Below, in pieces: positions 17,955 to 19,888 of a DNA stretch of 45,965 nt; position 1 is the stretch's first letter; every line of letters starts with the position of its first letter. Below the pieces are notes generated by a model. That model made no database searches and had not been told where the DNA came from. It worked only from the letters and a program-made list of their open reading frames with translations. A program made the translations under genes and the position numbers. Location of the stretch: NCBI GenBank assembly GCA_027067555.1, contig JAMOVU010000063.1, positions 1-45,965 of the forward strand. Direction: 5' to 3'. This stretch comes from Candidatus Aminicenantota bacterium (GTDB lineage: Bacteria; Acidobacteriota; Aminicenantia; JAMOAD01).

Positions 17955-17984
17955 TGTAGAGACCTTGCATGCAAGGTCTCTACA
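17955..17984. repeat. REP-like perfect palindrome, 30 bp
   Basis: Perfect inverted repeat centred between 17969 and 17970; each arm is TGTAGAGACCTTGCA. It is preceded by TAAAATAATATAAAA, which also precedes the copy at 19857. GTAGAGAC...GTCTCTAC palindromes of this kind occur in many bacteria beside REP-associated transposases (RAYTs), and a RAYT fragment starts 11 nt downstream. Confidence 0.8.
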
Positions 17985-17994
17985 GAGGGATGGG

Positions 17995-18222
17995 AAAAAC
18001 AAATTTATGTCAAAAATATCGCCAAAAACAGGTTCATTGTCGGTAATTATCCGTTCGTACAAATCAGCGGTTACAAATACTGCCCGAAAAATCAACAAAA
18101 ATTTCTCATGGCAGCCGCGATACTATGAACACATAATAAGAGATGAAAATGATTTTATAAAAATATCGGAATACATATTGGAAAATCATCTCAAATGGGA
18201 GGAGGATGAATATTATTTGTGA
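17995..18222 (+). pseudogene. C-terminal remnant of a REP-associated tyrosine transposase (RAYT)
   Basis: About 75 codons read SLSVIIRSYKSAVTNTARKI, then FSWQPRYYEHIIRDENDF and ISEYILENHLKWEED. This is the C-terminal half of IS200-like TnpA_REP proteins. The N-terminal half with the HUH nuclease motif is missing, so the product cannot be active. The frame stays open back through the palindrome to an ATG at 17965, but that part is repeat DNA. RAYTs are domesticated single-copy transposases that act on REP palindromes; here one lies directly upstream. Confidence 0.75.
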
Positions 18223-18402: not shown

Positions 18403-18431
18403 TTGATTTTTATACTTTAAAGTATTATACT
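18403..18431 (+). promoter_or_regulatory. Promoter of the ATPase gene, leaderless layout
   Basis: TTGATT (18403-18408), 17 bp, TATACT (18426-18431), then 7 nt to the ATG at 18439. No usable ribosome binding site is present. The spacer and the -10 are covered by two inverted repeats. Confidence 0.6.
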
Positions 18432-18440
18432 TAAGAGTAT
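18412..18440 (+). promoter_or_regulatory. Two tandem ATACT-N4-AGTAT inverted repeats (candidate operator)
   Basis: The first, ATACT-TTAA-AGTAT (18412-18425), is a perfect 14-bp palindrome inside the promoter spacer. The second, ATACT-TAAG-AGTAT (18427-18440), overlaps the -10 and ends inside the start codon. Their centres are 15 bp apart. A dimeric repressor bound here would block both transcription and start-codon access. The repeats are seen in the sequence; the operator role is inferred. Confidence 0.55.
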
Positions 18441-19794
18441 GAAATTTGTTAATAGAATTAAAGAGCTTGAACTTTTAAAAAAATATCTTGGAAAAGGTCT
18501 TGTTATAGTCTATGGAAGAAGAAGGGTTGGAAAGACAGCTCTTATTCGTAAACTTATTGAAAACCAAAAAAGTATCTATTATCAGGCAGTAAAAATACCT
18601 AAAGAACTTCTCTACAAAGAGCTTTCCACTATAATCGGTAACAAAATAGGTGATGAGATTTTAAGCTCGGGAGAGATAAGAGACCCGGCAATGATTTTTA
18701 AACTATTTTCAAAAAATGCAAAAGGCTATACCCTCGTTCTTGATGAGTTTGGTTATATGGTTGAAGTGGATCCTTCGCTTCCTTCAATAATTCAAAGAAC
18801 AATTGATGAAAACAGAGGAGAATTCGGGATAATTCTTACAGGTTCAACATACTCAATAATACAAACGCTTTTAGGAGAAAAATCTCCTCTATGGGGTAGA
18901 ATTGAACTTTCTCTTGAAATTAAACCGATTGATTTTACATACACAAAGGATTACTGGGAAAATTTTGATTTTTACTACAGAGCTTCACTTTACGGAGCTC
19001 TCGGAGGAATGCCTTACAACTGGGAGAGAGTTATTTTAAAAAAAGATATTTTTAAAACACTTTATTATACATTTTTTAAACCCGAAAGCCCGCTTTTTCA
19101 GGAAGTTTTTTATATTTTAAGGGAAGAGTTGAGAGAGACAAAAAATTATATGGCAATACTTAATGCCATATCAAGCGGAAGGAGAAGGTTTAATGAGATA
19201 GCTGATCTTTCGTCAATAAATCCATCAAGCATTATGAAGTATCTTGAAGTTTTAAAGGAGATGAAAATAGTAACCCAGGAAATTCCCGTCGGAATTAAAG
19301 AGGGAAGAAAAAGAGGACTCTGGAGAATAGAGGATCCCATGGTAAGGTTCTGGTTCAGATTTGTTTTTCCGAAAAGACATCTTATTGAAATTGATGCTGG
19401 AATGGGAATAATTGATAGTTTGAAAAGGGAGTGGGATAATTATATGGGCAGAGTTTACGAGGATCTTTCAATGCAGATTATTTATGATTTAATAAGAAAA
19501 GAAGAAGTGACTGAAGTTGAAAAAATCGGAAGATGGTGGGGGAAAGCAAAAAATGGAGAGAACATAGAGATAGATATTTTGGGTTTAAATGGAAAAGAAA
19601 TTGTTTTGGCGGGAGAAGTTAAATGGGGATATTTTACGGAGAGTGATTATAAAAGATTTATTAAAAAACTTGAACTTATACCTTTTAAAAGGTATTCTAA
19701 TATGAAAATAATACTTTTTTCAGGAAAAGGTTTCAGGTTTGAAATCCCTGCCAATGTATTGGCAGTGGAGAGAGATAAAATAATGAGAAAATAA
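18439..19794 (+). CDS. Archaeal-type ATPase with DUF234 C-terminal domain
   Basis: 451 residues. The N-terminal AAA/STAND-like ATPase has P-loop GRRRVGKT (26-33), Walker B TLVLDEFGY and ILTGSTYSI (sensor). A winged-helix part (about 233-300) carries RRRFNEIADLSSINPSSIMK. The DUF234 end has E377-x-D379 and E393-V-K395, spaced as in PD-(D/E)XK nucleases. This family is abundant in archaea and thermophilic bacteria, often as scattered mobile genes, and its function is unknown. REP palindromes flank the gene, and its promoter carries a paired repeat. The winged helix could read that repeat, but this is inference. Confidence 0.85.
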   Translation: MKFVNRIKELELLKKYLGKGLVIVYGRRRVGKTALIRKLIENQKSIYYQAVKIPKELLYKELSTIIGNKIGDEILSSGEIRDPAMIFKLFSKNAKGYTLVLDEFGYMVEVDPSLPSIIQRTIDENRGEFGIILTGSTYSIIQTLLGEKSPLWGRIELSLEIKPIDFTYTKDYWENFDFYYRASLYGALGGMPYNWERVILKKDIFKTLYYTFFKPESPLFQEVFYILREELRETKNYMAILNAISSGRRRFNEIADLSSINPSSIMKYLEVLKEMKIVTQEIPVGIKEGRKRGLWRIEDPMVRFWFRFVFPKRHLIEIDAGMGIIDSLKREWDNYMGRVYEDLSMQIIYDLIRKEEVTEVEKIGRWWGKAKNGENIEIDILGLNGKEIVLAGEVKWGYFTESDYKRFIKKLELIPFKRYSNMKIILFSGKGFRFEIPANVLAVERDKIMRK

Positions 19795-19856: not shown

Positions 19857-19888
19857 CCGTAGAGACGTAGCATGCTACGTCTCTACGG
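19857..19888. repeat. REP-like perfect palindrome, 32 bp
   Basis: Perfect inverted repeat centred between 19872 and 19873; each arm is CCGTAGAGACGTAGCA. The same TAAAATAATATAAAA stretch precedes it as at 17955. The arms differ from that copy only in the inner bases (GTAG versus CTTG), and the differences are matched on both arms, which argues that the paired structure is selected or copied as a unit. Confidence 0.8.

Follow-up and report, generated by a model that had tools for sequence, protein, structure and literature searches.

The window, by which we mean the whole stretch of 45,965 nucleotides under study, contains a gene for a DUF234 ATPase, P0001, that stands alone among unrelated chromosomal genes, its neighbours encoding an OmpA/PA14 protein, a 243-residue protein without match and an S9 peptidase. 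Two adjacent palindromes lie in its promoter region, separated by 1 bp and centred 15 bp apart, and the second of them reaches into the ATG at 18439 (Table 1); the original prediction had described this arrangement, and it proved right letter for letter over 18403-18441. The whole candidate operator can be written ATACTTTAAAGTAT-T-ATACTTAAGAGTAT, and a 15-bp tandem is also called, independently, by TRF at 18410-18440. Since a gap of 7 nt separates the -10-like hexamer from the ATG and since there is no Shine-Dalgarno sequence, we infer that the promoter is leaderless. Its consensus score of 9/12 is unremarkable, shuffles yielding 2.4 such sites, and the argument for an operator therefore rests on the relatives of the gene. 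Across the 2.8 Mb of the genome the word ATACTN4AGTAT has seven copies, and it is paired only at the window gene.

Table 1. Features in and around the DUF234 ATPase gene, in window coordinates
Feature	Position	Strand	Basis or remark
REP palindrome, perfect, 28 bp, GTAGAGACNNNGCATGCNNNGTCTCTAC	17956..17983		upstream of the ATPase gene
Truncated REP-associated tyrosine transposase (RAYT), C-terminal half	17965..18222		NF047646, E 6.2e-9
-35-like hexamer TTGATT	18403..18408	+	consensus match only
Candidate operator, whole	18412..18440	+	both palindromes
Operator palindrome 1, ATACTTTAAAGTAT, occupying the promoter spacer	18412..18425	+	sequence; perfect
-10-like hexamer TATACT, overlapping the left arm of palindrome 2	18426..18431	+	17 nt from the -35
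Operator palindrome 2, ATACTTAAGAGTAT, over the -10 and the first two start-codon bases	18427..18440	+	arms perfect; layout conserved in relatives
DUF234 ATPase gene P0001, 451 aa	18439..19794	+	start backed by relatives, which share the N-terminus MKF-x-[ND]R
ATPase_2 domain, residues 3-171; Walker A GRRRVGKT, Walker B D102-E103, G135-S136, R154	18445..18951	+	Pfam, alignment, nearest folds 2qen and 2fna
Winged-helix region, residues about 234-300	19138..19338	+	Pfam, profile, model
Predicted recognition helix, residues 262-274, PSSIMKYLEVLKE	19222..19260	+	model; residue 267 most associated with operator letters
C-terminal DUF234 domain, predicted PD-(D/E)XK nuclease fold, residues 320-451; E341, D379, E393, K395	19396..19791	+	fold and motif
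REP palindrome, perfect, 28 bp, GTAGAGACNNNGCATGCNNNGTCTCTAC	19859..19886		downstream of the ATPase gene

The ATPase and the winged helix that had been read from the product are both recovered by Pfam, which finds ATPase_2, a helix-turn-helix (HTH) of the IclR/ArsR type at residues about 238-281 and DUF234, PF03008 scoring 73.1 bits (cut-off 22.5) and PF01637 52.2 bits (cut-off 33.2), both above the gathering score. The Walker A and B motifs are intact, with G26, R28, G31, K32, D102 and E103 invariant across 82 homologues, and an AlphaFold2 model built from 25 relatives has a mean pLDDT of 92.7. Both the best sequence matches (E about 1e-24) and the nearest solved folds of this model are the archaeal ATPases SSO1545 (2fna) and PABY2304 (2qen), followed in fold by STAND and ORC/Cdc6 proteins, and the profile match also reaches TnsC. 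The likeness to the two archaeal chains, which are 350-357 residues long, covers the ATPase and the winged helix and ends at the winged-helix region, these chains being without the DUF234 nuclease domain. The C-terminal E-x-D...E-V-K motif, earlier singled out as nuclease-like, is conserved in 76-82 of the 82 homologues, the putative catalytic E...D...E-x-K residues being kept in 80/82 (E341), 82/82 (D379), 76/82 (E393) and 79/82 (K395). Modelled alone (AF2 pLDDT 93.8), the C-terminal domain has PD-(D/E)XK proteins as its top Foldseek matches (Bax1, AF1548, Can2, R2 endonuclease, NucS, EcoT38I and Card1), which are remote with a best E of 1.6e-3, and its HMM profile reaches AF1548 with an E of 9.3e-5. 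The comparison with PD-(D/E)XK enzymes that had been proposed hence comes out in favour of kinship as far as models and profiles can tell, and the notion that DUF234 is a predicted PD-(D/E)XK nuclease is well supported at the level of fold and motif.

The REP repeats that were taken to mark the gene as part of a flanked system are indeed present on both sides of it, but they belong to a decayed RAYT, of which the truncated copy nearby accounts for them, and they are not a feature of the family. Seven such REPs occur in the genome, two of which flank the window gene, while others lie, among other places, beside unrelated genes. REPs as part of the system were rejected on these grounds, and a composite transposon or a RAYT/REP element carrying the gene was likewise discarded, the REPs lying by unrelated genes too and the RAYT being truncated. 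As a separate observation, one REP precedes the second DUF234 gene of the genome (C60) by about 200 bp and another follows an AAA-ATPase_like/PD-DEXK_9 gene (C135) at about the same distance, and REPs may favour accessory regions or the neighbourhoods of ATPase-nuclease genes.

Tandem palindromes upstream of DUF234 genes

Relatives were sampled as 82 DUF234 genes from the same phylum, from public plasmids (haloarchaea, Rhodothermus, Fusobacteria, Rhizobium and Bacteroides among them) and from viral contigs, members of the family being often plasmid-borne. The fixed word ATACT-N4-AGTAT was dropped as a measure of the family, because most relatives use other letters, and a sequence-blind score was adopted instead, which counts two palindromes with 5-bp arms and gaps of 4-6 plus their mutual identity, at periods 10-25 and with dinucleotide shuffles as the null. 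On this score the window gene reaches 20/20, and a score of 16/20 is found upstream of 34/82 genes at period 15 and of 10/82 at period 16, where shuffles lead one to expect 0.87 in either case. The stricter score of 18/20 is seen in 24/82 at period 15 and 5/82 at period 16 (0.07 expected each), and periods 10-14 and 17-25 have no excess over background among the 82 upstreams. The signal is furthermore retained upon thinning, with 26/68 genes at period 15 and 9/68 at period 16 below 60% identity (mean of other periods 0.9) and 8/30 and 3/30, respectively, below 40% identity (other periods 0.3). In the same loci, 128 upstream regions belonging to other genes give 1.6% at period 15, which is no more than background, 246 stretches within DUF234 genes give 0% at that period, and none of 25 upstreams of the related AAA_14-DUF4143 ATPases has a 15/16-bp tandem signal. 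An AT-rich repeat that arose by chance and has no function might come to mind, given that the region is AT-rich and that short palindromes are easily found in such DNA, but the more than thirtyfold excess over shuffles at period 15 and the tenfold excess at period 16, confined to those periods and carried by differing letters, speak against it, and on these family statistics we regard a chance repeat as excluded for practical purposes.

The period exceeds the palindrome length by one, most palindromes with a gap of 4 having period 15 and most with a gap of 5 having period 16, and inspection by eye reveals many relatives in which palindromes of other letters (CTACT, ATAAC, GCAAC, ATAAT, ATCCT, ATACC and ATGTT) stand 1 bp apart. 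Pairs of ATACT-N4-AGTAT had been expected upstream of homologues, and of this expectation the paired layout holds in about half of them, far above chance, whereas the fixed word is not conserved and the letters vary by protein lineage; in about half of the sampled homologues the score detects no 15/16-bp pair. Some observations hint at other layouts: the DUF234 genes L022, L032 and L034, which lack a 15/16-bp pair, have longer-spaced inverted repeats upstream (TTATCCGCACAT... and ATCCGCAAAT...), which may represent a second class of operator belonging to a different winged-helix clade, and some AAA_14-DUF4143 ATPase genes (L111-L117) have different inverted repeats (TTGCAAATTGAAAG...) near the -10, possibly another type of self-operator.

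Among the relatives the operator ends at a median of 18.5 nt before the ATG, it overlaps the best-scoring promoter by at least 20 nt in 20/42 genes, and it runs into the start codon in the window gene, in the 43%-identical relative L035 and in L024. As judged from the letters, palindromes so placed on the core promoter have the geometry of steric self-repression. Activation by the protein of its own promoter, through recruitment by the upstream palindrome, could be considered, since STAND-type regulators such as IniR can activate; indeed IniR induces iniBAC and its ATPase domain has been likened to SSO1545 (PMC5760070). The palindromes are however found in the spacer and on the -10 and start, both here and in many relatives, which is typical of steric repression, and they are not upstream of the -35, so that activation appears very improbable. 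The same positions bear on the notion that the array is the target of an ORC/TnsC-like machine for replication initiation, partition or transposition and overlaps the promoter merely from adjacency to the gene. The order of fold likenesses, from archaeal ATPases to STAND and then ORC/Cdc6, with the profile touching TnsC, is in agreement with such a machine, as are the three tandem palindrome copies at some relatives' genes and the many plasmid-borne members. On the other hand the sites are one-sided, matching far-side copies being absent in most sampled loci, and hence they do not represent the ends of an element; they lie across -10 and start regions at the distances given above, reaching into the start codon here and in L035, and the window gene is without replication or partition neighbours. 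We consider a target of this kind improbable, and steric self-repression is the reading retained in what follows.

Operator letters and their likely reader

The ATACT pair is shared by Aminicenantes-like bacteria, an unclassified bacterium, a Rhodothermus plasmid and a haloarchaeal Halapricum plasmid, and paralogues within one genome mostly differ in their letters (GCAAC, GTAAC and ATACC in G052; ATGTC versus CAAGT in G214), which suggests that the operator letters track the lineage of the protein, or its predicted recognition helix, and not the host. When the similarity of half-sites was set against the identity of each protein region, the winged helix gave the strongest correlation (0.51, versus 0.43 for both the ATPase and the nuclease), and its partial correlation is 0.31 with a permutation p of 0.002, whereas the nuclease region keeps 0.16, ancestry not being fully removed. 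Of all columns of the protein, the one most strongly associated with the operator is residue 267, which lies in the predicted recognition helix. All seven ATACT genes have [SNM]KY[LI] in this helix and all four CTACT genes have H[KR]YL, and [KR]267-Y268 goes with a C at half-site position 4 (15/17 genes versus 2/25), while in nearest-neighbour prediction the recognition helix by itself did no better than the whole winged helix. The covariation of helix and letters is supportive, and not conclusive, of a protein that reads its own operator, because shared ancestry partly remains and because the nuclease region also keeps a partial correlation.

The pair was furthermore searched for in reverse. 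Allowing up to two mismatches, the ATACT pair occurs in 5/297 genomes of the phylum, and its reversed control in 0/297. Four exact pairs exist in the 297 genomes, and each is found upstream of a DUF234 gene (the window gene, G005, G009 and G045). The fifth genome has two mismatches and three ATACT-like palindromes at 15-bp steps (L041; G154:C318, about 1501-1544), and these precede an ATPase gene of the ATPase_2/AAA_14 kind without DUF234, so that the operator layout may extend beyond DUF234. The CTACT pair occurs in the same genomes three times exactly and once with a single mismatch, always upstream of DUF234 (G041, G049, G016 and G178), and one further match with two mismatches lies elsewhere; the latter is probably due to chance, since the reversed control also yields one. 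A truncated 205-residue ATPase_2 gene with a partial ATACT palindrome upstream (L147; G033:C57) looks like a gene and an operator decaying together. Ten contigs of the viral collection carry an exact pair, nine of them ATACT and one CTACT, and no DUF234 gene was found in their records, from which it follows that the motif alone is not diagnostic of the gene. Two viral contigs (L180:1170-1270 and L179:2896-2996) carry three tandem ATACT operators, ATACTCCAAAGTAG-T-ATACTCTAAAGTAT-A-ATACTCTAAAGTAT, directly upstream of a portal-like gene, neither record yielding a DUF234 gene, and a search with L010 for close relatives among viral contigs gave none.

For most genes the operator palindrome is found nowhere else in the sampled locus, and as the pair is also unique in its genome, the operator is, on the evidence of these sequences, without a regulon. 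Letters that follow the protein, a winged helix that correlates best with them and the lack of a regulon together favour the protein as its own predicted reader. It is well established that host factors can silence acquired genes (xenogeneic silencing), and the palindromes might accordingly be sites of a separate host transcription factor that holds such genes off, the more so as binding by the DUF234 protein itself is a prediction. Uniqueness of the pair in its genome is however unusual for a host regulator, related proteins in another phylum and in archaea share the letters while paralogues of one genome mostly differ, and the best correlate of the letters is the protein's own winged helix; a host factor is hence unlikely. 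The original idea that the gene is self-controlled is supported by the family-wide operator on the core promoter.

A probable self-repressed ATPase-nuclease among known defence candidates

Taken together, we consider it likely that the gene encodes a stand-alone, self-repressed ATPase-nuclease, whose winged helix sits on the tandem palindromes until a trigger relieves repression and the nuclease acts. We infer that the protein itself does the binding, that binding represses rather than activates, that there is a trigger and a defensive role, and that release and arming of the nuclease are driven by ATP or a ligand. The winged helix, probably as dimers, would bind the two adjacent palindromes, one between -35 and -10 and the other on the -10 and start codon, RNA polymerase would be kept out, and the gene would idle at a low level set by feedback. 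The ORC/STAND-like ATPase domain would then engage a trigger, most likely foreign DNA or an activity of the invader, upon which the protein would change state by ATP- or ligand-driven assembly and leave the operator, and it would then be produced in larger amounts and act by way of its C-terminal PD-(D/E)XK nuclease. The coupling of an ORC/STAND-like ATPase to a nuclease indeed suggests that assembly both frees the operator and arms the nuclease.

The original prediction saw in this gene the best candidate for an undescribed system, but the family is already listed as PADLOC PDC-S27 and as arCOG03166 (PMC4158269). The PDC-S27 profile matches the window gene with an E of 3e-30 over residues 2-396, and 25/25 aligned members match it (best E 9.6e-178). 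PDC-S27 is a single-gene phage-defence candidate that has its make-up of ATPase and PD-(D/E)XK domain in common with P0001; it is one of the defence candidates enriched in archaea (3503 instances there and 4562 in bacteria), most PDC candidates of this sort still await validation, and its definition rests on protein sequence only, with no mention of promoter or palindromes (PMC12988326). Makarova et al. (2014, PMC4158269) list arCOG03166 as an 'AAA+ ATPase fused to HTH and RecB nuclease domains' and as a likely defence or plasmid gene of archaeal dark-matter islands. It has the three domains of P0001, a match by description and not by profile, and a term search of that paper gave no regulation or operator for it. 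We likewise found no description of a mechanism or of regulation for PDC-S27 in the literature searched, nor any of the family-wide operator among the open-access papers that could be searched. The protein family is thus already known as an unvalidated defence candidate, and the family-wide self-operator is undescribed in the searchable literature. No known defence genes are neighbours of the window gene, and the wider family offers only single cases such as a Csm5 or an N-6 methylase neighbour; a location of this kind would speak for defence, though it does not define PDC-S27. About 20 annotated plasmid loci have no conserved partner gene, their neighbours differing.

Palindromic operators over defence promoters are a familiar theme, being read by winged-helix or HTH proteins in the case of BrxR, CapW (WYL) and the C proteins of restriction-modification systems. 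These are self-repressing or otherwise operator-linked regulators of defence (for BrxR, PMC9122589). Unlike in these systems, a single polypeptide here comprises both the predicted repressor and the predicted effector nuclease, and the operator consists of palindromes repeated in tandem at a fixed step of 15/16 bp. Other stand-alone P-loop ATPases are related as well, namely AAA_14-DUF4143, in which the 25 upstreams lack the tandem signal and some have other inverted repeats, and AAA-ATPase_like/PD-DEXK_9 (DUF1703), which also has a PD-(D/E)XK domain (PMC1913061).

A wider proposal, which we put forward tentatively and regard as somewhat doubtful, is that DUF234/PDC-S27 proteins are one-protein systems found across domains, in which the effector would be its own repressor through a private tandem operator of 15/16-bp step, and in which letters and helix would co-diverge, sparing co-resident copies from mutual silencing. 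Viral carriage of the operator, as on L179/L180, might then decoy or trigger the system. The family-wide operator predicts the DNA bound by each protein and thereby supplies probes for EMSA and reporter assays, and it furthermore allows a recognition-helix code to be tested at the sequence level in archaea and bacteria alike. Finally, it indicates that the gene is probably designed to stay off, as one would expect for a harmful effector nuclease.
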